Origin: Sphingomonadales bacterium | GTDB lineage: Bacteria; Pseudomonadota; Alphaproteobacteria; Sphingomonadales; Sphingomonadaceae | NCBI GenBank assembly: GCA_027483465.1 | Contig: JAIXUQ010000115.1 | Coordinates: 1-64,000 of the forward strand | Direction of reading: 5' to 3' | DNA: 64,000 nucleotides | Part shown: positions 10,999-42,186 of the stretch, piece after piece | Numbering within the stretch: position 1 is the first letter of the stretch | Layout: each line of letters begins with the position of its first letter | The notes under the pieces: model-generated | Databases searched by the model: none | What the model was told of the DNA's origin: nothing | What the model saw: the letters and a program-made list of their open reading frames with translations, nothing else | Program-made: the position numbers and the translations under genes

Positions 10999-11661
10999 AT
11001 GAAGGGCCGATGCGTGACCGATGCCGATGGCCGCCCAGGCCGCACCCATGATGCCGATGCCACAAGGGCCGACATATTGAAGGTGGCCGCCAGCGAATTT
11101 GCCGCCAAGGGCCTGGCCGGTGCGCGGATCGATGAAATTGCCGAAAAAACCCGCAGTTCCAAGCGGATGATCTATTACTACTTCGGCAGCAAGGAAGAAT
11201 TATACCGCGCCGTCCTTGAGCAGAATTACGCCGGCATCCGCGAGGCCGAGGCCGACCGCCATTTCGAGGACTTGCCGGCACTGGCCGCGCTGCGCGCCCA
11301 TGTGGAGCACACGCTGGATTATCACCTCGCCCACCCCGAATTCGTGCGCATGGTGATGAACGAAAATATCCATCAGGCTCAACATCTTGGCGGGGTGGAA
11401 GGCATACGCGACCGCAACAGTCGGGTGATCGCATCGATGCAGGCGATCATCGACAAGGGGGTGCGCGAAGGCGTGTTCCGCGCCGGCATCGATGCGCTGG
11501 AACTGCATCTGCAAATCTCGTCGCTGTGCTTCTACATGGTGTCCAACCGCTACACGATCCGCACCATCTTCGGCCTCGACATGGAAGACCCGGCGGTGAT
11601 CGCGCAGCGCCGCGAAGCCATCGTGCAGAGCGTGCTCGCATCGGTGCGGCAGGCCGGCTGA
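10999..11661 (+). CDS. TetR-family transcriptional regulator
   Basis: A 220-residue regulator. The N-terminal DNA-binding domain is clear: ADILKVAASEFAAKGLAGAR, then IDEIAEKTRSSKRMIYYYFG and SKEELY, the standard TetR helix-turn-helix. The rest is a helical ligand/dimer domain. It stands alone between the lig operon and the exported esterases, in the same orientation as both. Four copies of an operator-like sequence lie just downstream in the region, and this protein is the best local candidate to bind them. No copy lies before its own gene, so autoregulation is not evident. Confidence 0.88.
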   Translation: MKGRCVTDADGRPGRTHDADATRADILKVAASEFAAKGLAGARIDEIAEKTRSSKRMIYYYFGSKEELYRAVLEQNYAGIREAEADRHFEDLPALAALRAHVEHTLDYHLAHPEFVRMVMNENIHQAQHLGGVEGIRDRNSRVIASMQAIIDKGVREGVFRAGIDALELHLQISSLCFYMVSNRYTIRTIFGLDMEDPAVIAQRREAIVQSVLASVRQAG

Positions 11662-11710: not shown

Positions 11711-11732
11711 TATGGACGAACTGGTTAATATA
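11711..11732 (+). promoter_or_regulatory. Operator copy 1, before the esterase operon
   Basis: The core GGACGAACTGGTTAATATA is almost identical to copies before the PQQ dehydrogenase and ThuA genes and lies 28 bp before the esterase ATG. A possible promoter is TTGTCG (11688-11693) and TTATGG (11710-11715) with 16-bp spacing, so the site would cover the -10 and start of transcription. A TetR operator is the simplest reading. Confidence 0.6.
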
Positions 11733-11760
11733 ACAATACACCACCGGGGGGAGGGCAGCG

Positions 11761-12786
11761 ATGAAACGCTGGGCAATTTGGGCAAGCGCCTGTTTCTATG
11801 GCCTTTTCATGCAGGCACCGGCGCAGGCGCAGCGCCCGGCCGCTCCGCGCGATCTGCCCACGGCGGCAGCCGGGCCGGCGCTGGGCGATCCCATGCCGGA
11901 ACGGGCACTGGCCTTTCCCGGCGGCATCACCGGCCTGGCCGACATCATCTTCTCCACGGTGAACGGCTATCGGCCGCTGCGGCTCGATCTCTACCACAAA
12001 CCCGGCGCCGGGCGGCGCCCGCTGGTGATCTATGTCCACGGCGGCGGCTGGGTGGGCGGCCACACCCGCCAGGCCGGCGCGATCAGCGATTTTCCGGCGG
12101 CGCTGGCCCGCCTCGCCGCCGAAGGCTTCGTGGTCGCCAGCCTCGAATATCGGCTGGCCGGCGAAGCCCCGCACCCCGCCCAATTGCAGGATGTGCGCGC
12201 CGCCATCCGCTTTCTGAAGGCCAATGCCGGCCGCTATGGCATTGATTCCAAACGCATCGGGATCTGGGGCGGCTCGGCCGGCGGCCATCTGGCGGCGCTG
12301 GCTGCGACCAGTTGCGGCGATGCCACGCTCGATCCGCCGGCCCGCCCCGGCCAGCCGGCACCACCCGCCGGCGACACCTGCGTGCAGGCCGCGGCCATCT
12401 GGTATGGCGTGTTTGATTTCAAACCCTTGCTGGCCCGCCAGGCCCAGCCGGGCGCCCCGGCGGCGGAAAACCAGCTGCTGCGCTGCACGCCGGCCAGTTG
12501 CGATCCGGCGCGTGTCGCCAATGCCAGCCCGGCGCATTATTTCAGCCGGCAAAGCCCGCCGTTCCTGCTGATCCACGGCATCAATGATCGCACCGTGCCG
12601 GTGGACCAGTCCCGCCTGGCCGAAGCCGGGCTGCAGGCCAACGGCGTGCCGGTGAAGGCCATCTACATCCCCGGCGTGGACCACAGCTTCATCAGCGCCG
12701 ATGCCGCCACCACCCACGCCGCCACCATGCAGGCGGTGAACGCCACCTTCGATTTCTTCCACACCAGCCTGGGAGACCGCAAATGA
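11761..12786 (+). CDS. Exported alpha/beta-hydrolase (BD-FAE-like esterase)
   Basis: A 341-residue esterase with a signal peptide ending near AQAQ (residue 23-24). The oxyanion motif is VHGGGW, the nucleophile S172 lies in WGGSAGGH, the acidic residue is in NDRTVP and the histidine is in GVDHSF, so a full catalytic triad is visible. The ribosome-binding site GGGGGGAGGG precedes the ATG. It is the first gene of an operon (4-bp overlap with the carboxylesterase) behind the shared operator. By context it could hydrolyse a plant phenolic ester such as chlorogenate or feruloyl esters (inference). Confidence 0.82.
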   Translation: MKRWAIWASACFYGLFMQAPAQAQRPAAPRDLPTAAAGPALGDPMPERALAFPGGITGLADIIFSTVNGYRPLRLDLYHKPGAGRRPLVIYVHGGGWVGGHTRQAGAISDFPAALARLAAEGFVVASLEYRLAGEAPHPAQLQDVRAAIRFLKANAGRYGIDSKRIGIWGGSAGGHLAALAATSCGDATLDPPARPGQPAPPAGDTCVQAAAIWYGVFDFKPLLARQAQPGAPAAENQLLRCTPASCDPARVANASPAHYFSRQSPPFLLIHGINDRTVPVDQSRLAEAGLQANGVPVKAIYIPGVDHSFISADAATTHAATMQAVNATFDFFHTSLGDRK

Positions 12787-14360
12787 AGCCCTTCGCCAGC
12801 CTCGCTGCCGCCCTGCTGCTGGCGGCCACACCCCTTTGCGCTCAACAGGTTGCGGTGGAAAGCGGCAGCCTGGCCGGCACCACGCTTGATGGCGGGGTGC
12901 AGGCCTTTCTGGGCGTGCCGTTCGCCGCCCCGCCGGTGCGCGAACTGCGCTGGAAGCCGCCGCAGCCGGCCGCCGCCTGGGCCGGTGTGCGCCCGGCCAC
13001 GCAGGCCGCGCCGATGTGCCTGCAACCCGGCCGCGGCCGCACCATGAACCATTATTTCGGCAACGAGGCGGTGTCGGAAGATTGCCTCTATCTCAACATC
13101 TGGACCCCGCCGGGCGCGCCGCCGCCGGGCGGCTGGCCGGTGGTGGTGTGGATCTATGGCGGCGCCTTCAATGTGGGCTCCACATCCATGGCCAATTATG
13201 CCGGCGCCAATCTGGCCAAAAAGGGCGTGATCCAGGTGAATATCGCCTATCGCGTTGGCCCGCTTGGCTTTTTGGCCCATCCCGAACTCACCCGCGAAGG
13301 CGGCGGCCACAGCGGCAATTATGGCCTGATGGACCAGATCGCCGGCCTGCAATGGGTGCAGCGCAACATCCGCGCCTTTGGCGGCAACCCCGGCAATGTC
13401 ACCATCACCGGGCAATCGGCGGGCTCCATGTCGGTCGGCACGCTGCAGATGTCACCGCTTGCCAAGGGCCTGTTCCACCGCGTGGTCGGCATGAGCGGCA
13501 GCCCGATGCGCCCGCGCGGCGCGGTGCCATTGGCCGAAGCCGAAGCGCAGGGCCTGGCCGTGCAGAAGGCGCTGGGTGCCGATGGCATCGAGGCGATGCG
13601 TGACCTGCCGGGTGACCGGGTGCTGGCCGGGGCCGCCGGGGTGCCGCGGGATGCGCTGGTGGCCGATGGCCATGTGCTCACCGGCGATGCCGCCGCCACC
13701 TATGCCGCCGGCAGCCAGAGCAAGGTGCCGGTGCTGATCGGCTTCACCCGCGATGAAGCCTTTGCCAGCCTGGGCCCGGTGAAGACCGTGGCTGATTTCA
13801 CCGCCGCCGTGCGCGCCCGCTTTGGCGGCCAGGCCGATGCCGTGCTGGCCAGCTATGCCCCGAAGATCGAGGCCGATCTCACCCGCGCCCTCAACGACTT
13901 GCAGCGGGACATGAGCATCGGCCAGCAGGTGATGGGCTGGGCCGAGGCGCAGGCCAAGGCCGGCAGCCCGGCCTATGTCTGGCTGTTTGCCCGCCGCCAG
14001 CCCTATGCGCCGGGCATCACATTTGCCGATCATGATGCCGCCACGGCCGGCGCCTATCACACCGGCGATGTGCCCTATTGGTTCCAGACGCTTGATAGTT
14101 TGAACCTGTTCCGCACCACGCGCACCTGGACCGCCGAGGACCGGGCGCTGGCCGAGCGCATGTCGGACATGCTGGTGCGCTTTGCCCGCGGCGAAGCACC
14201 GGCCACCGATTGGCCGCGCTTTGATCCGGCCAAACCCCGGCTGATGTGGCTTGATCTGGAAACGCGCCCCATCGACTGGCCGCGCGCCGCGCTGGTCAAG
14301 ACGCTGGCCCCCACCCCCGAAGCCCGGCGGACCAATGCCGCCAACCGCCCGCGTGACTAG
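12783..14360 (+). CDS. Exported type B carboxylesterase
   Basis: A 525-residue carboxylesterase with a signal peptide (cleavage near LCAQQ). Family motifs are EDCLYLNIW, the oxyanion segment WIYGGAF and the nucleophile elbow TGQSAGS (S212). The histidine is in the AYHTGDVPYWF region. It is translationally coupled to the preceding esterase and overlaps the cytochrome c gene by 26 bp. In this catabolic setting it is likely to cleave aromatic or quinate esters in the periplasm, but the sequence does not fix the substrate. Confidence 0.85.
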   Translation: MKPFASLAAALLLAATPLCAQQVAVESGSLAGTTLDGGVQAFLGVPFAAPPVRELRWKPPQPAAAWAGVRPATQAAPMCLQPGRGRTMNHYFGNEAVSEDCLYLNIWTPPGAPPPGGWPVVVWIYGGAFNVGSTSMANYAGANLAKKGVIQVNIAYRVGPLGFLAHPELTREGGGHSGNYGLMDQIAGLQWVQRNIRAFGGNPGNVTITGQSAGSMSVGTLQMSPLAKGLFHRVVGMSGSPMRPRGAVPLAEAEAQGLAVQKALGADGIEAMRDLPGDRVLAGAAGVPRDALVADGHVLTGDAAATYAAGSQSKVPVLIGFTRDEAFASLGPVKTVADFTAAVRARFGGQADAVLASYAPKIEADLTRALNDLQRDMSIGQQVMGWAEAQAKAGSPAYVWLFARRQPYAPGITFADHDAATAGAYHTGDVPYWFQTLDSLNLFRTTRTWTAEDRALAERMSDMLVRFARGEAPATDWPRFDPAKPRLMWLDLETRPIDWPRAALVKTLAPTPEARRTNAANRPRD

Positions 14361-14640
14361 ATTGTTCCTCTCGCTGCCGCTGATCTGCGCGGCTGCCATC
14401 AGCGTGGCGGCCGCACAGGCGCCGGCGCCCGATCTGTCGCTGCTGCCGGCCGGGCCGGGGCGCGACCTGGTGGGCGCCAAATGCGGCACCTGCCACACGC
14501 TGGCCATCGTGGTGGGCCAGCGGCGTGACCGGGCGGCCTGGGAACAGTCAATCGACCAGATGATCGGCCGCGGCGCCGAGATCAGCGATGCCGAATATGA
14601 GGCGATCGCGGCCTATCTGGGCACCAATTTCGCGCCCTGA
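14335..14640 (+). CDS. Small periplasmic c-type cytochrome
   Basis: A 101-residue protein with a hydrophobic export signal (residues about 9-28) and a single haem-binding motif CGTCH (C50-H54). M76 is the candidate distal ligand. The C-terminal AEISDAEYEAIAAYLGTNF is typical of small cytochromes paired with quinoprotein dehydrogenases. It converges on the PQQ dehydrogenase gene 6 bp away and probably accepts its electrons. Start at ATG 14335 gives a good n-region; a GTG at 14353 is an alternative. Confidence 0.82.
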   Translation: MPPTARVTRLFLSLPLICAAAISVAAAQAPAPDLSLLPAGPGRDLVGAKCGTCHTLAIVVGQRRDRAAWEQSIDQMIGRGAEISDAEYEAIAAYLGTNFAP

Positions 14641-14646
14641 AGCGCG

Positions 14647-16623
14647 TCATTGCGGCAGCGCAAAGGCCATCACCACGTCGCTGGCCAGCGGGCTGTCGAG
14701 GAAGCTGCCGCCGGTGGCGGTGATCACCACATATTGCCGGCCGTCCTTGCCGCGATAGGTGGCCGGCGTGGCATGGGCGGCGGCGGGCAGGCGATATTCC
14801 CACAGTTGCTTGCCGCTGGCGCTGTCAAAGGCGCGGAAGCGGCCATCGTCGCTGGCGCCCACGAAGGTGACACCGCCGGCCGTGCTGATCGGCCCGCCGA
14901 TATTGGGCCGCCCGGTCAGGCGTTTGCCCTCGGGCAGTTCATCAGTCACCCCCAGCGGCACGCTCCAGGCCAGCTTGCCGCTGCGCGTGTCGATCGCCGA
15001 AAGCCGGCCCCAGGGCGGCTGCTGGCACATCAGGCGGGTGCCCGGCAGCTGGAAGCGCCCGCTCACCGGACCGCGCTCCACCGGCAATGGCCCCTTCGAT
15101 GGCACCAGCGCCGTCACCTGCCCCAGATCCGAGGTGTTAACGATGAGATAGCGCCGGTCAGCGGCATAGGTGAACCCGCCCCAGTTGCCGCCGCCCTGCA
15201 GGCCGGGGAAGCTGATCGTCACCTCGTTGAAGCCCACCGGCACATAAAGCCCGCCGGGCACCATCTGGTTCTTCGTCACCCAATCGGTGCAGCCCTGCTT
15301 CAGCTCCGGAGTCACATCGGCAATATCGGCCATGGCAAAGCCGGTGCGCGACAAGGGCGGTGTCACCTGCGGGATCGGCTGGGTGGGCGATGTCACCTCG
15401 CCGGGCACCGTGCTGGCCGGAAACGGCCGGTCCTTCACCGGAAACAGCGGTTTGCCCGTCACCCGGTCAAGCACGAACACCAGGCCGTTCTTGGAAATGA
15501 TGCCCACCGCCGGGATGCGGCGCTTGCCGCGTTCCACATCAAACAGCACCGGCGGCGCCTGGAGATCATTGTCCCAGATATCGTGGCGCACCACCTGGAA
15601 ATGCCACAGGCGCTTGCCGGTGGCGGCATCGGCGGCGACCAGCGTGGAGGAATAGAGATTGTCCCCCGGCCGGTCCCCGCCGAACCGGTCGAAACTGGGG
15701 GCGGCAAAGGGCATGTAGACGATGCCGCGCGCCGCATCGACGGTGAGGAAACCCCAGACATTGGTGCCTGACCGCGCCTCGGCGCCGCCGCCCCAACTGT
15801 CGTGATGGGGCTCGCCGGGGCGCGGCACGCTGTGGAACGTCCACACCAGCTTGCCGGTGCGGGCATCCCAGGTGCGCACATCGCCGGCGGCGCCGCGCGG
15901 CGGGAATTCCTGCACCGCCGCCCCGGTGATCACCAGATCCTTCCAGACGATGGGCGGTGAGGTCATGCCATATTGGCGCACCTCCTGCCCGTTCATGATC
16001 TCGGGCGTCTTCAGGTTGACGATGCCGCCATCACCAAAGCCGGCGGCCGGCTTGCCGGTGGCGGCCTCCAGCGCGAACAGGCGGCCATCACGGGTGCCAA
16101 AGAACAGCCGCGGCGGCGTCTGGGCATCGCCCGGCCAATATTCCACGCCGCGCAAACTGGGCTGGCCGGGGCCGGGGATCGCTGCCACCCAATATTCGCG
16201 CCCGGTTTCCGGCTCCAGCGCCACCACCCGGCCATAGGGGGTGGTGGTGTACATCACGCCGTCCACCACCAGCGGGGTGGCTTGCGAACCGGCAAAGCGG
16301 CTGCGCTGGCGGGTGAAGGCACCGCCGCCGGGGGGCACACCCTGCTGCAAAGCGGCGGGGGCGCCCACCGCTTCGGCCGCCCGCTGGGCAGCGGCGGCGG
16401 CATCGGGGGCCGGCGCATCCTGATTGGCGGGGCGCATGTGATAGGTCCACGCCGGGACCAGGCCCGCCACATTGGCCGGCGTGATCTGGGCCAGCGGGCT
16501 GTGGCGCTGGCCGCCCTTGTCGTGGCCATAGGTGGGCCAGTCGCCCGGCTCATCGGCGTCGGCCAGCACCGGCGCGGCCGCCAGAAGGAAACTTGTCGCC
16601 AGCAACTTCGGCGTCAGACGCAT
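14647..16623 (-). CDS. Periplasmic PQQ-dependent dehydrogenase, probable quinate/shikimate dehydrogenase
   Basis: A 658-residue quinoprotein with a cleavable signal (MRLTPKLLATSFLLAAAPVL) and no N-terminal membrane domain, unlike membrane glucose dehydrogenase. The propeller domain has WPTYGHDKGGQRHSPL, HDIWDNDLQAPPVL (catalytic Asp region) and SKNGLVFVLDRVTGKPLFP (PQQ-proximal lysine region). The start at 16623 follows a CGGGGAGTG ribosome-binding site. The neighbours AroQ, AroE and QuiC suggest that it oxidises quinate to 3-dehydroquinate, handing electrons to the adjacent cytochrome c. Other polyols or alcohols remain possible. A shared operator lies 20 bp before the start. Confidence 0.8.
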   Translation of the reverse strand: MRLTPKLLATSFLLAAAPVLADADEPGDWPTYGHDKGGQRHSPLAQITPANVAGLVPAWTYHMRPANQDAPAPDAAAAAQRAAEAVGAPAALQQGVPPGGGAFTRQRSRFAGSQATPLVVDGVMYTTTPYGRVVALEPETGREYWVAAIPGPGQPSLRGVEYWPGDAQTPPRLFFGTRDGRLFALEAATGKPAAGFGDGGIVNLKTPEIMNGQEVRQYGMTSPPIVWKDLVITGAAVQEFPPRGAAGDVRTWDARTGKLVWTFHSVPRPGEPHHDSWGGGAEARSGTNVWGFLTVDAARGIVYMPFAAPSFDRFGGDRPGDNLYSSTLVAADAATGKRLWHFQVVRHDIWDNDLQAPPVLFDVERGKRRIPAVGIISKNGLVFVLDRVTGKPLFPVKDRPFPASTVPGEVTSPTQPIPQVTPPLSRTGFAMADIADVTPELKQGCTDWVTKNQMVPGGLYVPVGFNEVTISFPGLQGGGNWGGFTYAADRRYLIVNTSDLGQVTALVPSKGPLPVERGPVSGRFQLPGTRLMCQQPPWGRLSAIDTRSGKLAWSVPLGVTDELPEGKRLTGRPNIGGPISTAGGVTFVGASDDGRFRAFDSASGKQLWEYRLPAAAHATPATYRGKDGRQYVVITATGGSFLDSPLASDVVMAFALPQ

Positions 16624-16643
16624 TGCCAAGCACTCCCCGCTTT

Positions 16644-16667
16644 TATATGTACCAGTTCGTACACATA
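16644..16667 (-). promoter_or_regulatory. Operator copy 2, before the PQQ dehydrogenase
   Basis: On the minus strand it reads GTGTACGAACTGGTACATAT, the most symmetrical copy, with TGTAC and GTACA half-sites around CAGTTC on the plus strand. It sits 20 bp before the PQQ dehydrogenase ATG and about 92 bp before the divergent aroQ start, so it could control both. Confidence 0.6.
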
Positions 16668-16759
16668 CGGACCTGTCGCCGCAATCCCCTGCCCTTGCCC
16701 GCCGCCACCGCGGGGTGGCAGGCTGAACCGACGCCAGGGAACCGAACGGGGGGACAGAC

Positions 16760-17212
16760 ATGAACGCCGATCAGGCCGCCGCCATCCACGTGCTGAACGG
16801 GCCCAATCTCAATCTGTTGGGCGAACGTGAACCCCATATCTACGGCCACGAGACGCTGGCCGACGTGGAGGCGCTGTGCCGCGCCGAGGCCGGCGCCCTG
16901 CCGCTGGTCTTCCGCCAGACCAACAACGAGCATGAGATGGTCGATTGGGTGCAGGCCGCCCGGCGCGGGCAGATCGGCATCGTCATCAATCCGGCCGCCT
17001 TCACCTATGCCGGCTATCCGATCCTCGATGCCCTCAAGATGGTCGATTGCCCGGTGATCGAGGTGCATATCTCCAACATCCACCGCCGCGAGGCGGAATG
17101 GCGGTCGAAATCGATCATGACCCAGGTGGTCACCGGCATCATTTCCGGGCTGGGCGTTGCCGGCTATGGCCTGGCCGTGCGCGATCTCGTCCGCCGCTGG
17201 CAGCAACGCTGA
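16760..17212 (+). CDS. aroQ: Type II 3-dehydroquinate dehydratase
   Basis: A 150-residue dehydratase converting 3-dehydroquinate to 3-dehydroshikimate, here probably for catabolism. It has the N-terminal LNGPNLNLLGEREPHIYG (catalytic Arg and Tyr loop), NPAAFTY and EVHISNIHRRE (catalytic His). The arginine after the EVHISN region is kept in EWRSKS, although this loop is one residue longer and diverges from the usual FRHHSY form. A GGGGGGAC ribosome-binding site precedes the ATG. The stop overlaps the MFS start by one base (TGATG). Confidence 0.92.
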   Translation: MNADQAAAIHVLNGPNLNLLGEREPHIYGHETLADVEALCRAEAGALPLVFRQTNNEHEMVDWVQAARRGQIGIVINPAAFTYAGYPILDALKMVDCPVIEVHISNIHRREAEWRSKSIMTQVVTGIISGLGVAGYGLAVRDLVRRWQQR

Positions 17213-18471
17213 TGCAGCCCAGCCGCGCCCGCCTGGGCATATTGGCGCTGATCACGGCGGCCACGATGCTCAACTACCTCGATCGCTCGGTGCTGGGCGT
17301 CGCCAAGCCGGCGCTCACCGCGGAATTGCAGATCGGCCCGGAGGTGATGGGCCTGATCTTCTCGGCCTTCAGCTGGACCTATGCGCTGGCGCAGGTGCCC
17401 GGCGGCTATGTGCTCGATCGGCTCGGCACCCGCCTCACCTATGGCCTGTCGCTGGCGCTGTGGTCGGCCGCCACCGCGCTGCACGGCCTGATGAGCGGGG
17501 TCGCCGGCCTGCTGGGCGCGCGCCTCGCGCTCGGCCTGGCCGAATCGCCCTGTTTCCCGGCCAACAGCCGCGTGCTGGCCAGCTGGTTCCCGCAGGGCGA
17601 GCGGGCGCGGGCCAACAGCGTCTATGCCGTGGGCCAATATGTCGGCCTTGGCCTGCTGATCCCCGTGCTGGGCTGGATCGTCGCCAACTGGGGCTGGCGC
17701 TCGCTGTTCTGGCTCACCGGCGGCATCGGAGTCGCCTTTGCCGGCATCTGGTTCCTGTTCTACCGGGAACCGCACGACAGCCGCGCCAATGCCGCCGAAC
17801 TGGCGCTGATCAGGGCCGGCGGCGGCCTGTCCACCGGCGCTGCGCCGCCGTTCAGCATGGCGATGCTGGGCCGGCTGATCCGCAAGCGGCAGGTGCTGGG
17901 CGCCTCCATCGGCCAGTTCTGCGGCAATTCCACCCTGGTGTTCTTCCTCACCTGGTTCCCCTCCTACCTCGCCGACGAACGCGGCATGGACTGGCTGAAA
18001 TCCGGCTGGGCCGCCGCCCTGCCCTATCTGGCCGCCAGCGTGGGCGTGCTGGTGGGCGGCCAGATTTCCGACTGGCTGATCCGCCGCACCGGATCGGCGA
18101 CACTGGGGCGCAAATTGCCGATCATCACCGGCCTGCTGCTCACCTCGACGATGATCGCCGCCAATTTCACCGACAGCAATGATCAGGTGATCGCCATCAT
18201 GAGCCTGGCCTTTTTCGGGCAGGGCATGGTCAACCTGGGCTGGACGCTGATCACCGATGTCGCCCCGCGGGAAGCGGTGGGCGTGACCGGCGGCCTGTTC
18301 AGCCTGTGCGCCAATCTGGCCGGCATCGTCACGCCGCTGGTGATCGGCTTCATCGTGGGGGCCACCGGCAGCTTCTATGGCGCCTTGGCCTATATCGCCG
18401 TCCTCGGCCTGATCGGGGCGGCGGCCTATGTGCTGATCGTCGGCCCGGTGGAGCGCGTGGCGCTGGACTGA
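17212..18471 (+). CDS. MFS transporter, organic-anion (ACS-like) type
   Basis: A 419-residue major facilitator with about 12 membrane segments. TM1 contains MLNYLDRSVLGVA, the loop after TM2 has YVLDRLGTR, and the first half ends in WRSLFWLTGG, features of the anion:cation symporter family that carries hexuronates, quinate-like acids and aromatic acids. It is coupled to aroQ and precedes the TonB receptor by 98 bp, so it most likely moves quinate, shikimate, dehydroshikimate or protocatechuate across the inner membrane (inference). Confidence 0.83.
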   Translation: MQPSRARLGILALITAATMLNYLDRSVLGVAKPALTAELQIGPEVMGLIFSAFSWTYALAQVPGGYVLDRLGTRLTYGLSLALWSAATALHGLMSGVAGLLGARLALGLAESPCFPANSRVLASWFPQGERARANSVYAVGQYVGLGLLIPVLGWIVANWGWRSLFWLTGGIGVAFAGIWFLFYREPHDSRANAAELALIRAGGGLSTGAAPPFSMAMLGRLIRKRQVLGASIGQFCGNSTLVFFLTWFPSYLADERGMDWLKSGWAAALPYLAASVGVLVGGQISDWLIRRTGSATLGRKLPIITGLLLTSTMIAANFTDSNDQVIAIMSLAFFGQGMVNLGWTLITDVAPREAVGVTGGLFSLCANLAGIVTPLVIGFIVGATGSFYGALAYIAVLGLIGAAAYVLIVGPVERVALD

Positions 18472-18490
18472 GGGCCGCGGCGCACCCGGC

Positions 18491-18540
18491 TTGACGGCGC
18501 GGTTCGGCGCCGATAGTGAACGCACTAGTTGGTACATTCA
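18491..18540 (+). promoter_or_regulatory. Promoter and operator copy 3, before the TonB receptor
   Basis: TTGACG at 18491-18496 and TAGTGA at 18514-18519 form a plausible promoter with 17-bp spacing. The following CGCACTAGTTGGTACATTCA (18521-18540) is the most divergent copy of the shared operator, keeping the GGTACAT half and CAC...GT spacing. It ends 29 bp before the chosen start codon, in line with the other copies. Confidence 0.5.
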
Positions 18541-18569
18541 CCAGAATGACCGGTCCAGGGGAGGATATC

Positions 18570-21569
18570 ATGGCTGTTTCGACGCGTTTCTTGCCGCATG
18601 TCTCTGTCATGGCGATGGCGATGACGATGGCGTTCCCGCCCACCGCCGCCGCCCGCGCCGCCGAAGACCAGCCGGCCACCGCCGCCGCCGATCAGGCCGA
18701 AGCCGAGGAAGCGGCCGAAATCGTCGTCACCGGTTCCAGCATCAAGGGCGTTGCCCCGGTGGGCTCCAACCTGATCAGCGTGAGCGCCGAAGCCATCGAG
18801 AAGACCAACGCCCAGACCGTGCAGCAGATCCTGCGCACCGTGCCGGCCGTGGTCGGCCTCGGTTCGGCCGGCCAGGGTGCCTTCAACTCCGCCTCGCAAT
18901 CGGGCACCAACGCCCCCACCATCCACGGCCTGGGCGGTTCGGCGTCCAACTCCACGCTCAACATCGTCGATGGCCACCGCATCCCGCTGTCGGGTGTCAA
19001 TCACAGCCTGGGCGATCCCAACATGGTGCCGGTCACCATGATCGAGCGGGTGGAGGTGCTGGCCGAAGGCGCCTCCTCCATCTATGGCTCCGATGCCGTT
19101 GCCGGGGTCATCAACTTCATCACCCGCCGCAAGTTCGATGGCGTGCAGGTGTCCGGCCAGCTGGGCTTTGGCGATGATTACCGCACCTATCAGGCCGGGT
19201 TCGTGGCCGGCACCAGCTGGGAAAGCGGCTGGGTGACGGTGGGTTACAATTATTCCGACCGGTCGCGCCTGCGCGTTGCCGATCGCCCCTTCCTGGCCGC
19301 CGATCAGCGCCAGCGCGCCACCGATGCCGGGCTTGATCTGTCCAGCGCCACCGCCCAGAACCGCGCCAATTTCGCCAGCTTCAACTGCGATCCGGCCAGC
19401 GTGCAGCCGGGCGGCACCACCAGCATCTTCCGCAACACCGGCAGCGGCTATGGCAATCCCGTTTCCAACGCCCAGGCCAATGCCTTTTGCGACATCAACC
19501 AGGCCGGTGACCAGTTGCCCGAAGAGCGCCGCCACAATCTGATGATGAAGGCGGAACAGAAAGTGGGTGACCGGCTGACCGTGGGCGCCGACATCCTCTA
19601 TTCCAACCGCAAGAACAACCAGCAGGTCAGCCGCGGCCAGGGCGGCACCGGTGGCGGCGCCATCCTCGCCACCGTGTTTGGCCCCGGCAGCACGCCGGCG
19701 GGCGGCGCCGGCCAGATCAACCCCTTCTATGTGGCGATGCCGGGGCAGACCTCCACCACCCAGCAGGTGCGCTTTTCGGCCGATGCACTGTTCGGCCCGG
19801 GTGCCGAGATCAATTCCGGCGAGGAGCATTTCTTTGCCAACACCCATGCCGAATATGAGCTGAGCGAGAAGTGGACGGTGTCGGGCCTGGCGCTGGTCGG
19901 CACCTCGGCCAGTTTCGTGCGTGACACCGGCCGCCTCAACCAGTCGGCCGCGCTGCTGGCGCTCAATGGCACCACCAACCAGGGCGGCAGCCTGACGACG
20001 ATTTCGGTGCCGGCCACCGGCCAGATCGTCACCCAGTTGCCGCTCACCACCGCCAATGCGCTGGACGTGTGGAACCTGGGCGCGGCCAACCGCACGTCTG
20101 CCGCGGTGCGCGCCCGCCTCACCGACACGACGACCTGGCGCTACACCCGCCAGGGCATCCAGAATTTCCGCCTGCAGGTGGCCGGTGACCTGTTCGATCT
20201 GCCCGGCGGCGCGGTGAAACTGGCGTTTGGCGGCGAATATATCGGCTACACCATCCGCCAGAATGCCTCCTTCCCCAACGGCACCGGCCCGGCCAGCAGC
20301 GGTTCCAGCACGATCAACCTGGATTACACCCGCAATGTGAAGGCGGCCTATGCCGAAATGCTGTTCCCGATCGTGGGGCCCGAACAATCGATCCCGTTCA
20401 TCCACAAGCTGGATCTGAACGTCGCCGGGCGCATCGACGATTATTCGGATTTCGGTTCCACCAGCAATCCCAAGATCGCGGTGAACTGGGAGCCGACCGA
20501 GGGCATCCGCGTGCGGGGCAACTGGTCACGCAGCTTTGTCGCTCCGGCCTTGACCAGCTTTGGCGCCGATGGCCGCGGCACCACCGCCGAAACCAGCGTG
20601 GCCGGCGGCCCGACCAACCTGGCCGTGCCGATCGCCGCCTATCCCGGCGTGTCGAGCATCCCCGGCGTGTCGTGCAGCGCCACCACCTGCACCATCGGCA
20701 CGCCCACCATCCAGGGCCTGCAGATCAACGGCGGCAACAATGAAATGGTGCCCCAGCGCGGCACCAGCTGGGCGCTGGGCGTGGATTTCACCCCGAATTT
20801 CGCCCCCGGCCTGCGCCTGTCGGCCACCTTCTGGTCCAACCAGTTCACCGGCGGCGTGACCGCGCCGGTTGCCGGTTCGGCGGTGAACATCACCGGGCTG
20901 CAACCGCTGCTGCGCATCTTCCCCACCGGTGCAACCGCCACCCAGATCCAGGACATTGTCGGCAACCGGCCGCTCACCACCTCGATCCCGGCAACGGTGC
21001 ATTATGTGTATGATTTCCGGCAGCGCAACGTGCTCAACCTGAAGGTGCAGGGCATTGATGCCGATGCGCGCTACACCCACAGCACCAGCTGGGGCAATTT
21101 CAGCCTGGGCGCGGCCATGTCGCTGAAGACGAAATTCGATCAGAATTTCGGCGGCGGGCCCACCTTCTCGGTGCTGGGCACCACCGGTTTCAACGGCACC
21201 TTCCCGTCGATCCGGCTGGATCTGCGCGCCGATGCCGGCGTGACCGTGGGCGATTTTGCTGCCAACCTGTTCCTCAACCACACCGGCAGCTATCGCAACT
21301 GGAGCGCCAATGCGGTGAACCCGGTGGTTTCGGTGGGCGGCGTGCCCACCGGCGCCGGCGGCGATCCGGTGAAGCCCTATACCACGGTGGATGCCCACAT
21401 CGCCTATACCCTGCCCGAGCGCTGGATGAAGGATGGCGAGGTGTTCCTCGACGTGCAGAACCTGTTCAACACCAGGCCGCCCTTCTACAACAACGCGCAA
21501 GGCTATGACACGTTTGCCGGCAACCCGATCCTGCGGGTGGTCAGCGTGGGTGTCAGGACACGTTTCTGA
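18570..21569 (+). CDS. TonB-dependent outer-membrane receptor
   Basis: A 999-residue receptor. After a signal peptide (about residues 1-33) comes a TonB-box-like EIVVTGSSIKG, then a plug domain (SVSAEAIEKTNAQTVQQIL, VEVLAEGASSIYGSDAVAGV) and a long beta-barrel ending in an aromatic residue (VGVRTRF), as outer-membrane proteins do. The start at 18570 gives a proper signal peptide and a GGGGAGGA ribosome-binding site; an upstream ATG at 18516 would fall inside the operator. It lies between the transporter and aroE and likely imports the bulky substrate of this cluster, such as chlorogenate (inference). Confidence 0.9.
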   Translation: MAVSTRFLPHVSVMAMAMTMAFPPTAAARAAEDQPATAAADQAEAEEAAEIVVTGSSIKGVAPVGSNLISVSAEAIEKTNAQTVQQILRTVPAVVGLGSAGQGAFNSASQSGTNAPTIHGLGGSASNSTLNIVDGHRIPLSGVNHSLGDPNMVPVTMIERVEVLAEGASSIYGSDAVAGVINFITRRKFDGVQVSGQLGFGDDYRTYQAGFVAGTSWESGWVTVGYNYSDRSRLRVADRPFLAADQRQRATDAGLDLSSATAQNRANFASFNCDPASVQPGGTTSIFRNTGSGYGNPVSNAQANAFCDINQAGDQLPEERRHNLMMKAEQKVGDRLTVGADILYSNRKNNQQVSRGQGGTGGGAILATVFGPGSTPAGGAGQINPFYVAMPGQTSTTQQVRFSADALFGPGAEINSGEEHFFANTHAEYELSEKWTVSGLALVGTSASFVRDTGRLNQSAALLALNGTTNQGGSLTTISVPATGQIVTQLPLTTANALDVWNLGAANRTSAAVRARLTDTTTWRYTRQGIQNFRLQVAGDLFDLPGGAVKLAFGGEYIGYTIRQNASFPNGTGPASSGSSTINLDYTRNVKAAYAEMLFPIVGPEQSIPFIHKLDLNVAGRIDDYSDFGSTSNPKIAVNWEPTEGIRVRGNWSRSFVAPALTSFGADGRGTTAETSVAGGPTNLAVPIAAYPGVSSIPGVSCSATTCTIGTPTIQGLQINGGNNEMVPQRGTSWALGVDFTPNFAPGLRLSATFWSNQFTGGVTAPVAGSAVNITGLQPLLRIFPTGATATQIQDIVGNRPLTTSIPATVHYVYDFRQRNVLNLKVQGIDADARYTHSTSWGNFSLGAAMSLKTKFDQNFGGGPTFSVLGTTGFNGTFPSIRLDLRADAGVTVGDFAANLFLNHTGSYRNWSANAVNPVVSVGGVPTGAGGDPVKPYTTVDAHIAYTLPERWMKDGEVFLDVQNLFNTRPPFYNNAQGYDTFAGNPILRVVSVGVRTRF

Positions 21570-21574
21570 TCACC

Positions 21575-22474
21575 ATGGGAGCGAATGCGACGCCGATGCG
21601 GGAGATGGCGGTGACCGGGAACGCCTGCCTGGTGGGACTGATCGGCCGTGACATCGGCGCCTCGCGTTCGCCCTCGATGCACGAAAGCGAGGCCAGCGCG
21701 CAGGGCCTGCGCCTGCTTTACATGCTGTTCGATTTCGCCCAGCGCGGCTGGGACGTGGCCGATCTGCCGCGCCTGCTGGCGGCGCTGCAAACCGTGGGCG
21801 CGGCCGGCTGCAACGTCACCTACCCCTACAAGCAGGCGGTGATCGCGCATCTGGATGCGCTGTCGCCGCAGGCCGAAGCGGTGGGCGCGGTGAACACCAT
21901 CGTGTTCAGCGGCGGCCGCGCCACCGGCCACAACACCGATGTGAGCGGCTTTGGCGAGGCGCTGGCCGGCGGGGTGGGCAACCGGCCCTTTGCCCGGGTG
22001 GTGCAGGTGGGGGCCGGCGGCGCCGGGGCGGCCACCGCCCAGGCGCTGCTGCGGCACGGGGTGCGGCAACTGGCGCTGTTCGATGTCGATGGCGCCCGCG
22101 CCGCCACACTGGCCAGCCGGCTGCACGGCCAATTCCCTGATCGCGAGGTGACGGTGGGCGGCGATCTGCCCGCCGCGCTGGCCGCCGCCGATGGCCTTGT
22201 GAACGCCACGCCGATGGGCATGGCCAAGCTGCCCGGCCTGCCGGTGCCGGCCGAATGCCTGGGCCCGCATCTGTGGGTGGCCGATATCGTCTATTTCCCG
22301 CTGGAAACCGCGCTGGTGGCCGAAAGCCGGCGGCGCGGCTGCGCGGTGATCAATGGCAGCGCCATGGCCATCGGCCAGGCCGCCGCCGCCTTCACGCTGT
22401 TCACCGGCCGCCCGGCCGATCGGGCCCGCATGCAGGCCAGCTTCGATCGCTTCGCCGCCGCCCGGGCGGCCTGA
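21575..22474 (+). CDS. aroE: Shikimate/quinate dehydrogenase
   Basis: A 299-residue AroE-family enzyme. The catalytic lysine K86 (NVTYPYKQ) and aspartate D122 (HNTDVSGF) are present, and the nucleotide motif is GAGGAGAA (147-154). The substrate motif near residue 30 reads SRSPSMHE instead of the biosynthetic S-x-SP form, which fits catabolic quinate/shikimate dehydrogenases. It starts 5 bp after the receptor stop; ATG 21605 is an alternative start. Together with aroQ and quiC it would bring shikimate or quinate to dehydroshikimate. Confidence 0.87.
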   Translation: MGANATPMREMAVTGNACLVGLIGRDIGASRSPSMHESEASAQGLRLLYMLFDFAQRGWDVADLPRLLAALQTVGAAGCNVTYPYKQAVIAHLDALSPQAEAVGAVNTIVFSGGRATGHNTDVSGFGEALAGGVGNRPFARVVQVGAGGAGAATAQALLRHGVRQLALFDVDGARAATLASRLHGQFPDREVTVGGDLPAALAAADGLVNATPMGMAKLPGLPVPAECLGPHLWVADIVYFPLETALVAESRRRGCAVINGSAMAIGQAAAAFTLFTGRPADRARMQASFDRFAAARAA

Positions 22475-22484
22475 GGGCCCGGCG

Positions 22485-24356
22485 GTGAAGCGCTCCATCG
22501 CCACCGTCTCGCTCAGCGGCACCCTGGAACAGAAGCTGGCGGCGGTGGCGGCGGCCGGCTTTCAGGGCGTCGAGATTTTCGAGACTGACCTGATCACCTT
22601 CCCCGGCCGCCCGCGCGAGGTGGCCGCGATTGCCGCCGATCTCGGCCTTGCCATCACCCTGTTCCAGCCCTTCCGCGATCTGGAGGGCATGCCCGAACCG
22701 CAGCGTTCCCGCGCCTTCGAACGGATGGAGCGCAAGTTTGATGTGATGGCCGAACTGGGCGCACCGCTGCTGCTGCTCTGCTCCAACTGCTCGCCGCTGG
22801 CCCTGCCCGACCGGCCGCGCCTCATCGCCGATCTGCACGAACTGGGCGAACGCGCCGCCGCGCGCGGGCTCAAGGTCGGCTATGAGGCGCTGGCCTGGGG
22901 CCGCCATGTCAATGATCACCGCGAGGCCTGGGCCCTGGTGCGGGACACGGACCACCCCGCCATCGGCCTCATCCTCGACAGCTTCCATTCCCTCGCCCGC
23001 CGCATCCCATCGAGCAGCATCGGCGATATCCGCGCCGAAAAATTGTTCCTGGTGCAGGTCGCCGATGCGCCGCTGCTCGAGATGGACCTGCTGCACTGGA
23101 GCCGGCATTTCCGCTGCATGCCCGGCCAGGGCGATTTCGCGGTGGCCGATTGGGCCGAGGCCATCTGGCGCACCGGCTATGACGGCTGGTGGAGCCTGGA
23201 AATCTTCAACGACCGTTTCCGCGCCGGTTCGGCCAGCGGTGTGGCGCAGGATGGCAACCGTTCCCTGCTGGCGCTGGCCGATCAGGTCGCCCGCCGCCCA
23301 CGCCCGCCGCTGGTGCCGGCCATGCCGCCGCCGGTCACCGCCGAGCGCATGGCCTTCATCGAATTCGCCGCCAGCCACGCCGAGGCCGCCGCGTTGGGCG
23401 AGATGCTGGCCGCGCTGGGTTTCCGCGCCGCCGCCCGCCACCGCCGCAAGGATGTGGTGCGCTGGACACAAGGGGCGATCAACATCGTCGTCAACAGCGA
23501 GCCCGAGGGCTTCGCCCACAGTTTCGACATCATGCACGGCGCCTCGGTCTGCGCGCTCGGCATGGTGGTGGACGATGTGGCCGGCGCGCTCACCCGCGCG
23601 CAGGCGCTGGGGGTGCCGCGCTTTGACCAGGCGGTGGGGCCGGACGAGATGGACATCCCCGGCGTGCGCGCGGTGGGCGGCAGCCTGATCCATGTCATCG
23701 CCAATGGCCACGAAGACGCGGTGTGGGCGCATGAATTCCCGCTGCCGATCGCCGGCGCCGCCACCGGCCAGCCACTGGGCCTCACCAGCATCGATCATGT
23801 CGCCCAGACGATGAGCCACGAGGAATTCCTGAGCTGGCAGCTGTTTTACGTCACGCTGTTTGCCATGGCCAAGACACCCCAGGTCCAGATCGCCGACACG
23901 CTGGGCCTGGTGCACAGCCAGGCGGTGGAATCGCCGGGCAAAGGCATCCGCATCACGCTGAATGGCAGCCAGAGCGGGCAGACCCTGTCCTCCCGCTTCG
24001 TCCAGCATTATTTCGGCGCCGGCGTGCAGCATATCGCCTTCGCCTGCCCCGATATCGTCGCCGCCGCCACCGCCGCTGCCGCCAACGGCCTGCCGGTGCT
24101 GCCCATCCCGGCCAATTATTACGACGATATCGAAGCCCGCTTCGGCCTCGATCCGGCGCTGGTCGCCACCTTGCGCGCCCACAACATCCTGTATGACCGG
24201 GATGGCGAGGCCGAATATTTCCAGGTCTACAGCCGCGCCTTTGCCCGCCGCGTCTTCTTCGAGATTGTCGAGCGCCGGGCCTATGCCGGCTATGGCGCCG
24301 CCAATGCCGTGGTGCGGCTGGCCGCGCAGGCGCGCTTCAAGCCGCCGCCAGCCTGA
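22485..24356 (+). CDS. quiC: 3-Dehydroshikimate dehydratase, two-domain QuiC type
   Basis: A 623-residue fusion. The N-terminal TIM barrel (about 1-275) has the four metal ligands of characterised QuiC1 at the same positions: E134, D165, Q191 and E239. The C-terminal part (about 300-610) resembles 4-hydroxyphenylpyruvate dioxygenase (VOC fold), for example LTSIDHVAQ and GVQHIAFAC. It converts 3-dehydroshikimate to protocatechuate, linking this cluster to ligAB. The start is GTG at 22485, 10 bp after the aroE stop; there is no suitable ATG. It ends 3 bp before the convergent ThuA gene. Confidence 0.93.
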   Translation: MKRSIATVSLSGTLEQKLAAVAAAGFQGVEIFETDLITFPGRPREVAAIAADLGLAITLFQPFRDLEGMPEPQRSRAFERMERKFDVMAELGAPLLLLCSNCSPLALPDRPRLIADLHELGERAAARGLKVGYEALAWGRHVNDHREAWALVRDTDHPAIGLILDSFHSLARRIPSSSIGDIRAEKLFLVQVADAPLLEMDLLHWSRHFRCMPGQGDFAVADWAEAIWRTGYDGWWSLEIFNDRFRAGSASGVAQDGNRSLLALADQVARRPRPPLVPAMPPPVTAERMAFIEFAASHAEAAALGEMLAALGFRAAARHRRKDVVRWTQGAINIVVNSEPEGFAHSFDIMHGASVCALGMVVDDVAGALTRAQALGVPRFDQAVGPDEMDIPGVRAVGGSLIHVIANGHEDAVWAHEFPLPIAGAATGQPLGLTSIDHVAQTMSHEEFLSWQLFYVTLFAMAKTPQVQIADTLGLVHSQAVESPGKGIRITLNGSQSGQTLSSRFVQHYFGAGVQHIAFACPDIVAAATAAAANGLPVLPIPANYYDDIEARFGLDPALVATLRAHNILYDRDGEAEYFQVYSRAFARRVFFEIVERRAYAGYGAANAVVRLAAQARFKPPPA

Positions 24357-24359
24357 GCC

Positions 24360-25307
24360 TCATTTCGGCGCCGCTGTCATGGCGTGCGGGCGCGGGGCCT
24401 GGCCGCCATTGATCGCCCACTTGATGCCTTCAAGAAACAGCGTCTGCACGCGGGGATCGTCCCAGGCGGCATCGGGATGGCCCAGGCCGGAATAAAACAC
24501 CCGGCCCTTCCCGTACGACTTGATCCATGCCACCGGAAAATCGCCATCGGTGCGGTGCACGCCGGGCCGTTTCAGATCCAGCCCGCGCGTGTCCAGCCGG
24601 GCCAGCACGTCCACATCGGCGCGGCTGTAGGGGGTGGGCAGCATCTGGTAATGCTCATCCTCCAGCACGCTGCCGGTCTTCAGCCGCTTCATCGCCGGGA
24701 AATCCGGCCGCTCCACGATGATCTTCGCCTTGGAGATGCCCCAGGGGTGATTGTCGAAACTGCCGCCGATCATCTGCTGATAGTCCGGCCAGCTTGCCGC
24801 CGTGGCGGTGGCGGTGTGCACGCCGATGAAGCCCTTGCCGTCCTTGGCGATGAAATCCAGCAGGTCCTGCTTCTGCTGCGGCATCATCCGCGTCTCGCCG
24901 TTGGTGTAAAACAGCACGGCATCGAAATAATCCAGATTGCGCCCGCGCGCCTGGCGCGGCCCGCCCTTGGCATAGGCGCCGGTGCCCCACACCTCGCCCT
25001 TGGTGACAAGATCGGTATCGGTGCGGATGATGGCGACATAGGCGCCCGATTTGCGGCCCAGTTGCTCGATCACCGAAACAGCATGGCTGGAACCGATATG
25101 GGCCGTCTGGTTGCCGGTGGACAGATCGGCAATGATCAACAGCCGCTTCTTGTCGGCATAAGGATCGCGATAGCCGCGCGGCGGGCCGGCGGGTGCCCCG
25201 GCTGGCGCGGCCCCGGCGGCCGGATTGCGTGGCGGTTCCACCGGCTGCGCCAGCGCGGCGGCAGCCGCAACCAGCCACAGCCCCGCCCCGATCCCCAGCC
25301 CGCGCAT
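24360..25307 (-). CDS. Exported ThuA-like protein
   Basis: A 315-residue secreted protein with a signal peptide (MRGLGIGAGLWLVAAAAALA) and a proline/alanine-rich linker. A ThuA (trehalose-utilisation-like) glutamine-amidotransferase-type fold is shown by KKRLLIIADLSTGNQ, FYTNGETRMM, KGFIGVHTATATAA, GSFDNHPWG and GRVFYSGLGHPDAAW. The molecular function of this family is not settled; links to sugar-alcohol or glycoside metabolism are common. A GGGGGGAGG ribosome-binding site precedes the ATG, and the shared operator lies 23 bp upstream, tying it to the quinate module. Confidence 0.8.
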   Translation of the reverse strand: MRGLGIGAGLWLVAAAAALAQPVEPPRNPAAGAAPAGAPAGPPRGYRDPYADKKRLLIIADLSTGNQTAHIGSSHAVSVIEQLGRKSGAYVAIIRTDTDLVTKGEVWGTGAYAKGGPRQARGRNLDYFDAVLFYTNGETRMMPQQKQDLLDFIAKDGKGFIGVHTATATAASWPDYQQMIGGSFDNHPWGISKAKIIVERPDFPAMKRLKTGSVLEDEHYQMLPTPYSRADVDVLARLDTRGLDLKRPGVHRTDGDFPVAWIKSYGKGRVFYSGLGHPDAAWDDPRVQTLFLEGIKWAINGGQAPRPHAMTAAPK

Positions 25308-25330
25308 ATATGCCTCCCCCCCGGTTCGTG

Positions 25331-25352
25331 TAATGAACCAGTTCGTACATCA
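25331..25352 (-). promoter_or_regulatory. Operator copy 4, before the ThuA gene
   Basis: On the minus strand it reads GATGTACGAACTGGTTCATT. The TGTACGAACTGGT core is identical to that before the PQQ dehydrogenase. It is 23 bp from the ThuA ATG and in the same orientation relative to the gene as the other copies. Confidence 0.6.
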
Positions 25353-25374: not shown

Positions 25375-25429
25375 GCAGGTTCGACAGCGCTGCTTGTCGG
25401 AAATTGGCGCGCCCAGCAGGACTCGAACC
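25375..25429 (-). repeat. Partial duplicate of the tRNA-Arg 3' end
   Basis: A 25-bp stretch (25405-25429) is identical to the CCA, acceptor and T-loop end of the nearby tRNA-Arg (25489-25513). Similarity continues for about 30 bp beyond the tRNA 3' end (GCAGGTTCGA...GCGC at 25375 versus 25462). The T stem is no longer paired and there is no D arm or anticodon arm, so it is a broken copy, not a gene. The two copies are 84 bp apart. Confidence 0.75.
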
Positions 25430-25488: not shown

Positions 25489-25565
25489 TGGCGCGCCCAG
25501 CAGGACTCGAACCTGCGACCCCGAGCTTAGAAGGCACGTGCTCTATCCAGCTGAGCTATGGGCGC
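25489..25565 (-). tRNA. tRNA-Arg (TCT)
   Basis: Read on the minus strand, the acceptor GCGCCCA pairs with TGGGCGC, the D arm is GCTCAGCTGGATAGAGC, the anticodon loop contains CTTCTAA (TCT) and the T arm is GCAGGTTCGAGTCCTGC. The 3' CCA is encoded. Length is 77 nt. The surrounding 330-bp gap (25308-25637) otherwise holds only the operator copy and the partial tRNA duplicate. Confidence 0.97.
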
Positions 25566-41760: not shown

Positions 41761-42186
41761 TCAGAAACTGGCGAGTTCCACCCCCACGGCGCCGCAATCG
41801 GGATAGACATCGGGCTTGCGGGTGGAAAGCCGCACCGCCACCACCCCGTCGCGGGCTGCAACCAGTTCGTAGATGGCATGGGCCACGGTTTCCTGCAGGT
41901 TGAAGCGCCGGCCTTCCACCAGCCGCAGCACCGACAGGCGCAGGAAATTATAATCCCAGGCTTCGGCCACCGCATCGCTGCGCGGGAAATGGCCGGCATC
42001 CACCCACACCTCGATGTTCACCCGCAGCGTTTGCGGGCTGCCCACCTCGAAATCATGGAATCCAATGTCCACCGGCAGATCGAAATCCTCCAGGAAAATC
42101 TTGCGGGTGCGGATGCCCAGGCCAGGCGGCACCAGGCCGCTGGCCAGCGGTTCGATCACAGTGGGCGGGGGAGCGGCATCGGGCAT
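41761..42186 (-). CDS. folB: Dihydroneopterin aldolase family protein
   Basis: A 141-residue FolB/FolX-type protein. IFLEDFDLPVDIGFHDFEVG is the conserved N-terminal strand, ETVAHAIYELV carries the catalytic-region helix, and VRLSTRKPDVYPDCGAVGVEL is the C-terminal strand pair. It would cleave or epimerise dihydroneopterin derivatives. A N-terminal extension of about 25 residues is unusual. The ATG at 42186 (GTG 42189 is alternative) overlaps the stop of the upstream SDR, suggesting joint pteridine synthesis. Confidence 0.82.
   Translation of the reverse strand: MPDAAPPPTVIEPLASGLVPPGLGIRTRKIFLEDFDLPVDIGFHDFEVGSPQTLRVNIEVWVDAGHFPRSDAVAEAWDYNFLRLSVLRLVEGRRFNLQETVAHAIYELVAARDGVVAVRLSTRKPDVYPDCGAVGVELASF

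Follow-up and report, generated by a model that had tools for sequence, protein, structure and literature searches.

A stretch of 64,000 nucleotides from a Sphingomonadales bacterium (contig JAIXUQ010000115.1 of assembly GCA_027483465.1, positions 1 to 64,000; referred to here as the window) carries four copies of a 20-bp palindrome, S1 to S4, in a cluster of quinate/shikimate genes that also contains the gene for a TetR-family protein, beginning at position 10999 (TetR 10999). On the strength of sequence comparisons we propose that S1 to S4 are quite likely to be operators at which TetR 10999 represses five units of the cluster, and from which it would be released by a quinate/shikimate-type metabolite. 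TetR 10999 is very probably the regulator concerned. What the sequences show directly is that the sites exist, are unique in the genome and conserved, and are linked both to a TetR clade and to quinate genes.

Four copies of a palindrome in a quinate/shikimate gene cluster

The first-pass annotation of the window had described four copies of one operator-like sequence, and all four are indeed present. Alignment of the four window sites with the sites of relatives revealed that the full element is the 20-bp palindrome TGTACGAACTAGTTCGTACA, to which S1, S2, S3 and S4 have 5, 4, 3 and 5 mismatches, respectively. The sites were scored with a symmetric matrix whose 66 distinct training sites all come from other genomes (49 of 95 loci, each site with ≤4 mismatches to the palindrome, and with the window excluded). 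In the window this relatives' matrix ranked S1 to S4 as the top four matches (Table 1); the fifth match reached 2.6 bits, a gap of 19 bits, and the highest score in 30 Markov-simulated windows was 10.4 bits. In the register of the palindrome the four copies described earlier take the positions given in Table 1, with S3 at 18517-18536 rather than 18521-18540. Nor is S3 the weaker copy that it had been taken for: it ranks third by the matrix and is the nearest to the ideal palindrome, whereas S4 scores lowest and has a weak downstream half (3.3 bits). Similarly, the claim that all four copies share one orientation relative to the gene carries little meaning for a palindrome, and in S3 it is the downstream half that is the better one.

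In the genome as a whole (3,582,211 bases in 118 contigs, 96% complete), the degenerate 20-mer TGWACKAACTRGTTMRTWCA occurs at only these four places, both at ≤2 and at ≤3 mismatches, and a reversed-pattern control gave 0 matches at ≤2 mismatches and 1 at ≤3. The many unrelated genome-wide matches that had been named as grounds for abandoning the idea were therefore not found. Shorter or looser descriptions of the element fared less well. The 10-mer core ACGAACTGGT is exact at three of the four sites and at one other place (41861-41870, inside an open reading frame), and at ≤2 mismatches it has 86 window matches where 22 are expected; it was rejected as a stand-alone motif because it is too common. 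The pattern TGNACGAACTGGTNCA at ≤2 mismatches was rejected as too loose (93 genome matches compared to 31 for a control). The abundance of the core would favor the idea that the four copies resemble each other by chance or belong to a small dispersed repeat, but for the full element that idea is refuted by the matrix ranking, by the permuted controls described below and by the genome-wide uniqueness, and we assign it a negligible probability. As a full 20-bp element the four sites are real and highly significant.

The sites were said to lie shortly before start codons, and they do, although the gaps are 20-33 bp rather than 20-30 bp. (Note that gene starts were picked by eye from the ribosome-binding site and signal peptide. 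The longest open reading frames of the pyrroloquinoline quinone (PQQ) dehydrogenase and TonB receptor genes would overrun the operators, and the start of the former was set at 16623 rather than at the longest-frame start, 16761.) The genes originally listed behind the sites, namely the esterase/cytochrome genes, the PQQ dehydrogenase gene, thuA and TonB-aroE-quiC, are retained, but one unit had been missed: S2 is also 96 bp from the ATG of aroQ, in the opposite direction, and aroQ opens a divergent aroQ-MFS unit. Because S2 lies between the PQQ dehydrogenase gene and aroQ, four sites could serve all five units. The genes around the sites look like a complete quinate/shikimate route.

Association of the palindrome with one TetR clade

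The candidacy of TetR 10999 as the regulator is supported by independent genomes. A search for the protein in 298 genomes of the family returned 25 at E ≤ 1e-20, of which 18 are close (>170 bits, the window's own included) and 7 distant. Matches to TGWACKAACTRGTTMRTWCA as a strict pattern are present in 11 of the 18 genomes with a close homolog and in 5 of the 280 genomes without one (Fisher p = 3.6e-12, with genomes treated as independent), and 17 of the 19 motif places in the TetR-positive genomes are ≤15 kb from the TetR gene. In one genome (G112) a site at C1:335771 lies just before quiC (C1:333848-335689) and the TetR gene is on contig C5, which argues that the motif tracks the regulon rather than the neighborhood. 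(One motif place in G025, C187:2555, has no recognized neighbor.) Moreover, QuiC-type matches that exceed the HPPD background (≥219 compared to ≤169 bits) were found in 17 of the 18 TetR-positive genomes and in 1 of the 280 others; among the TetR-positive genomes the match is partial in G025 and G117, and there is none in G217. The only candidate for a counter-example, that is, a quinate genome without the TetR, was G205, and it was set aside as it has no motif.

A scan of genome contigs with an alignment of the TetR proteins found at least 510 relatives, and the best 80 of these make up our named loci. The relatives include members of the Sphingomonadaceae, Acetobacteraceae, Rhizobiales, Burkholderiales and Pseudomonas. 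AroE, QuiC or AroQ is encoded in the fetched stretch of 73 of the 80 named loci (AroE in 68, QuiC in 54 and AroQ in 36), and an MFS homolog lies near the TetR gene in 15 loci. Among 17 loci from the family genomes, 16 have AroE, QuiC or AroQ, the exception being L043, a 4.8-kb contig. When ≤4 mismatches are allowed, the 80 named loci contain 60 copies of the palindrome, compared to 0-1 for each of 30 half-shuffled palindromes. When the named and family loci are counted together as 96 loci (L071 was omitted, as it was taken to be the same as G185:C58), a palindromic operator-like sequence is seen near the regulator's own or neighboring genes in 85 of the 96, with 144 places at ≥15 bits by the matrix. 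Of these places, 109 are located between -60 and +350 bp relative to the start of a matched gene (with TetR counted as such a gene), 35 are found elsewhere, and 0 lie inside a matched gene. Many of the 35 are found just after the TetR gene in Burkholderiales, perhaps before an operon whose first gene went unrecognized by our queries. Matrix training and the permutation control used 95 loci (L075 was also left out), and there ten half-permuted matrices found 0-5 places as compared to 142 with the real matrix; three loci of outgroup TetR proteins have 0 places. In one locus (L040) a 17.3-bit site lies between the PQQ dehydrogenase gene and aroQ. Sites thus precede quinate/shikimate genes near TetR homologs in Alpha-, Beta- and Gammaproteobacteria, which supports reading the element as a regulon operator, and the regulon appears to extend far beyond the single locus. 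Two loci (L029 and L030, from G185 and G050) have tandem operator-like sequences before a TonB receptor gene, with starts 25 bp apart.

These data also bear on whether another regulator, for example the LysR protein encoded at 3831-4739, binds the sites, with TetR 10999 a mere neighbor. The LysR gene shares the catabolic segment with the TetR gene, and in other bacteria there are quinate genes under the control of LysR proteins. However, a homolog of this LysR is near the TetR gene in only 2 of the 80 named and 1 of the 17 family loci, whereas the sites go with the TetR clade in 85 of 96. Furthermore, the palindrome is present in loci that were retrieved solely by their TetR protein, and genomes lacking a close TetR homolog hardly ever have the motif (5 of 280). 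The LysR protein was rejected as the binder on the scarcity of its homologs near TetR, and we consider an alternative regulator of this kind to be very unlikely.

Proposed repression by TetR 10999

TetR 10999 matches TetR_N (PF00440) at 47.7 bits against a cut-off of 24 and TetR_C_29 (PF17938) at 139.2 bits against 26.2, and it is the only TetR_C_29 match in the genome (E ≤ 0.001). Its predicted structure is an all-helical TetR fold of ten helices (mean predicted local distance difference test score 91.4), and its best Foldseek matches are TetR proteins, the top ones with template modeling scores of 0.75-0.85. Alignments of 18 and 44 proteins indicate that R117 and H170 never vary within the quinate clade, and three outgroup proteins have other residues there, whereas E122 and N123 are common to the clade and the outgroup. 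(The 44-protein alignment comprises 43 of the 80 named loci and the window; L110 was omitted for a stop codon, and several rows are cut short.) As a guess, R117 might hold a carboxylate. In one subclade (L015, L016, L017 and L012, from G034, G028, G117 and G076) two residues are missing in the helix-turn-helix; in 2 of these 4 genomes the core of the palindrome is nonetheless retained close to an MFS gene (L041 and L042). TetR homologs (<60% identity, E ≤ 1e-40) are also encoded on 273 plasmid records, of which 202 are from Sinorhizobium or Rhizobium and 81 are predicted to be conjugative.

We infer DNA binding, repression, the ligand and the position relative to the promoter from the patterns described here. 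A TetR dimer would bind the 20-bp palindrome just upstream of the ribosome-binding sites and would probably sit over the core promoter or transcription start, thereby blocking transcription of the esterase-carboxylesterase-cytochrome c, PQQ dehydrogenase, aroQ-MFS, TonB-aroE-quiC and thuA units. That repression would be by occlusion is suggested by the palindrome ending 20-33 bp from the ATG. Quinate, shikimate or 3-dehydroshikimate would then bind the C-terminal domain, and the TetR would be released. The gene context and the clade-specific residues R117 and H170 may hint at release by a ligand. These three compounds are more likely ligands than chlorogenate or protocatechuate, since AroE and QuiC are common in the 80 named loci whereas esterases and LigAB are rare (FAE in 7, COest in 9, LigA in 2 and LigB in 3). 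In the 17 family loci, however, esterases are common (FAE in 10 and COest in 11).

A number of observations weigh against this reading. In the window there is no site upstream of the TetR gene itself (best score -18.8 bits). Around none of the four sites did we find a sigma-70-like promoter better than those in shuffled sequences, which leaves the earlier claim of a fixed position between promoter and ribosome-binding site unsupported. Seven of the 18 TetR-positive family genomes have no strict-pattern match, and five genomes without a close TetR do carry a match, at 17.5-24.0 bits; none of the cluster genes lies within 1.5 kb of these five. Eleven of the 96 loci (L038, L043, L044, L082, L091, L095, L104, L108, L113, L117 and L148) have no place at ≥15 bits. 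Their best scores run from -5.6 to 13.9 bits, with 6 of the 11 at 12-14 bits, and five of them (L043, L082, L091, L095 and L113) encode none of AroE, QuiC and AroQ either. In three loci (L072, L092 and L097) sites are present although the fetched stretch does not encode AroE, QuiC or AroQ. The matrix test is not fully blind, as the palindrome that chose the training sites came from the window and the relatives together; moreover, 66 of the counted sites also trained the matrix, and several loci are close relatives of each other. Lastly, TetR 10999 might bind the sites but activate the quinate genes, or both activate and repress them. The place of the sites, 20-33 bp from start codons, suits blocking better than recruitment of polymerase, and activators usually bind further upstream. 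Pointing the other way, Pip (PA0243), a TetR protein and possible relative, regulates positively according to the excerpted text of PMC9736018, and that of PMC3684763 has Pip raising the expression of phzI/phzR in P. chlororaphis. We regard activation as unlikely.

The shared sequence could also be imagined to be a core promoter element or the recognition site of an alternative sigma factor. It lies at a short and similar distance from each start codon, and S1 and S2 have an AT-rich, TATA-like right end. Nevertheless, the element is a palindrome with four occurrences in the whole genome, it follows one TetR clade, and in relatives it stands at varying distances from gene starts, so we hold this explanation to be highly improbable and favor an operator bound by TetR 10999.

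Genomic setting and comparison with known regulators

Upstream of the cluster are protocatechuate 4,5-cleavage genes for LigA, LigB, a LigC-like oxidoreductase, an amidohydrolase and a VanA-type oxygenase, along with the LysR gene; with the relatives' matrix no site was found before the lig genes in the window. Within the cluster, the QuiC-type protein scores 668.6 bits (residues 46-661 of the frame) against the 1200-bit cut-off of the QuiC equivalog NF042435. A ThuA-domain protein is also encoded in a few related clusters (L036, L129 and near the L069 site).

The whole protocatechuate and quinate segment (window 806-25513) lies between a metallo-beta-lactamase gene (1-822) and a tRNA-Arg gene. 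The metallo-beta-lactamase gene and the tRNA-Arg gene with its right flank are common to relatives in the genus. In G304 both landmarks are present with unchanged orientation and flank about 9.4 kb of different DNA. G106 and G311 have the homolog of 1-822 in inverted orientation, at distances from the tRNA gene of 0.13 kb (almost no DNA in between) and 3.2 kb, respectively. The family sample contains six other genomes of the genus, and in none of them was the TetR (E ≤ 1e-20) or a QuiC of full length found. Because the landmarks enclose other DNA in relatives and these genomes lack the TetR and a full-length QuiC, the part of the window from about 0.83 to 25.4 kb seems to be a catabolic segment that was acquired at a variable tRNA-Arg site, and the place itself looks like a tRNA insertion hotspot. 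At the right edge the 3' end of the tRNA is duplicated perfectly over 25 bp, which fits such a gain; the two copies are 84 bp apart and occur nowhere else in the genome at ≤3 mismatches. In G020 (L165) the tRNA end appears to be joined directly to the sequence that follows the second copy here, which suggests an 84-bp insertion or duplication scar in the window. No integrase was found among the segment genes searched in Pfam, and Rfam gave two tRNAs only at gathering scores in the whole window.

Table 1. Positions of the putative operators, cluster genes and segment edge in the window (bits for S1 to S4 are scores by the relatives' matrix)
Feature	Position	Strand	Remarks
Putative operator S1	11713..11732	+	TGGACGAACTGGTTAATATA; 28 bp to esterase ATG; 25.5 bits
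Putative operator S2	16644..16663	-	TGTACGAACTGGTACATATA; 20 bp to PQQ dehydrogenase ATG; 27.7 bits
Putative operator S3	18517..18536	+	TGAACGCACTAGTTGGTACA; 33 bp to TonB receptor ATG; 24.2 bits
Putative operator S4	25330..25349	-	TGTACGAACTGGTTCATTAC; 22 bp to ThuA ATG; 22.1 bits
TetR-family regulator, proposed repressor	10999..11661	+	TetR_N and TetR_C_29
BD-FAE-type esterase	11761..12786	+	Opens S1 unit; Pfam
Carboxylesterase	12783..14360	+	S1 unit; Pfam
Small c-type cytochrome	14353..14640	+	cbb3-type match under Pfam cut-off; GTG start by eye
PQQ-dependent dehydrogenase, glucose/quinate/shikimate family	14647..16623	-	445 bits, NCBIfam cut-off 833
AroQ-type 3-dehydroquinate dehydratase	16760..17212	+	Divergent from PQQ dehydrogenase; named from its N-terminus, not from a family search
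MFS transporter, D-galactonate transporter-like	17212..18471	+	
TonB-dependent receptor	18570..21569	+	Opens S3 unit
AroE-type quinate/shikimate dehydrogenase	21575..22474	+	
QuiC-type 3-dehydroshikimate dehydratase	22473..24356	+	HPPD-like C-terminal half
ThuA-domain protein	24360..25307	-	Downstream of S4
tRNA-Arg 3' end, two perfect 25-bp copies	25405..25429, 25489..25513	-	Right edge of segment

Judged from sequence, the system is a TetR-operator regulon in every testable feature except autoregulation, which is common but not obligatory in the TetR family; among the sites of relatives, 34 are situated before a TetR gene. The best NCBIfam match of TetR 10999 is RutR of E. coli, a member of the same superfamily known from uracil-bound structures, two of which (6z1b and 4jyk) are its structural neighbors of rank 2 and 3. 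However, the match reaches only 67.4 bits against an equivalog cut-off of 368, on which ground TetR 10999 was rejected as a RutR. The two proteins share 26-27% identity, the gene context in the window is quinate rather than pyrimidine, and the RutR operator, TTGACCA-NN-TGGTCAA, is unlike the palindrome described here. The closest solved chain, both by sequence (4.5e-24) and by fold (rank 1), is DIP1788 (3npi), a TetR protein of Corynebacterium diphtheriae with 29% identity to TetR 10999, whose structure listing names neither a target nor a ligand.

Quinate and its esters, such as chlorogenate, are abundant plant carbon sources. Quinate/shikimate catabolic genes are controlled by the IclR-family protein PcaU in Acinetobacter and by the LysR-family proteins QsuR and QuiR in Corynebacterium and Listeria, and the protein families and operators of these regulators differ from those of the TetR system described here. 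To our knowledge, the bacterial regulators of quinate breakdown all belong to the IclR or LysR family. Quinate/shikimate genes are included among IclR-family regulons in the excerpted text of PMC8222616. The titles and abstract openings of the open literature that we found describe no TetR regulator of quinate genes, and the main text of PMC6449761, which compares aromatic regulons among Betaproteobacteria, contains neither "quinate" nor "TetR". If true, one conserved operator shared by a TetR clade throughout the Alpha-, Beta- and Gammaproteobacteria would be a third solution, with regulons predicted in many genomes (at least 510 TetR relatives), and the TetR would be a candidate quinate/shikimate biosensor. 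The mechanism itself would be ordinary.

Pip of Pseudomonas is, like the regulator proposed here, a TetR-family protein, and PA0243 presumably lies in a cluster of the quiC-TetR-aroE-aroQ type. Four of our Pseudomonas loci (L133, L140, L144 and L147) have the order quiC-TetR-aroE-aroQ; a site precedes quiC in each of them and aroQ in L133, L140 and L147. The TetR of these loci may be Pip. The excerpted text of PMC9736018 identifies Pip as PA0243, and in that text, as in the excerpted text of PMC3684763, Pip is known for phenazine induction and is not linked to quinate. We raise the tentative and rather doubtful possibility that TetR 10999 founds an unnamed, proteobacteria-wide family of quinate/shikimate repressors that includes Pip, in which case the effect of Pip on phenazines, whether direct or via shikimate-pathway flux, would come from a regulator that primarily senses quinate/shikimate. 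If Pip does belong to the clade, what it senses and binds becomes directly testable.

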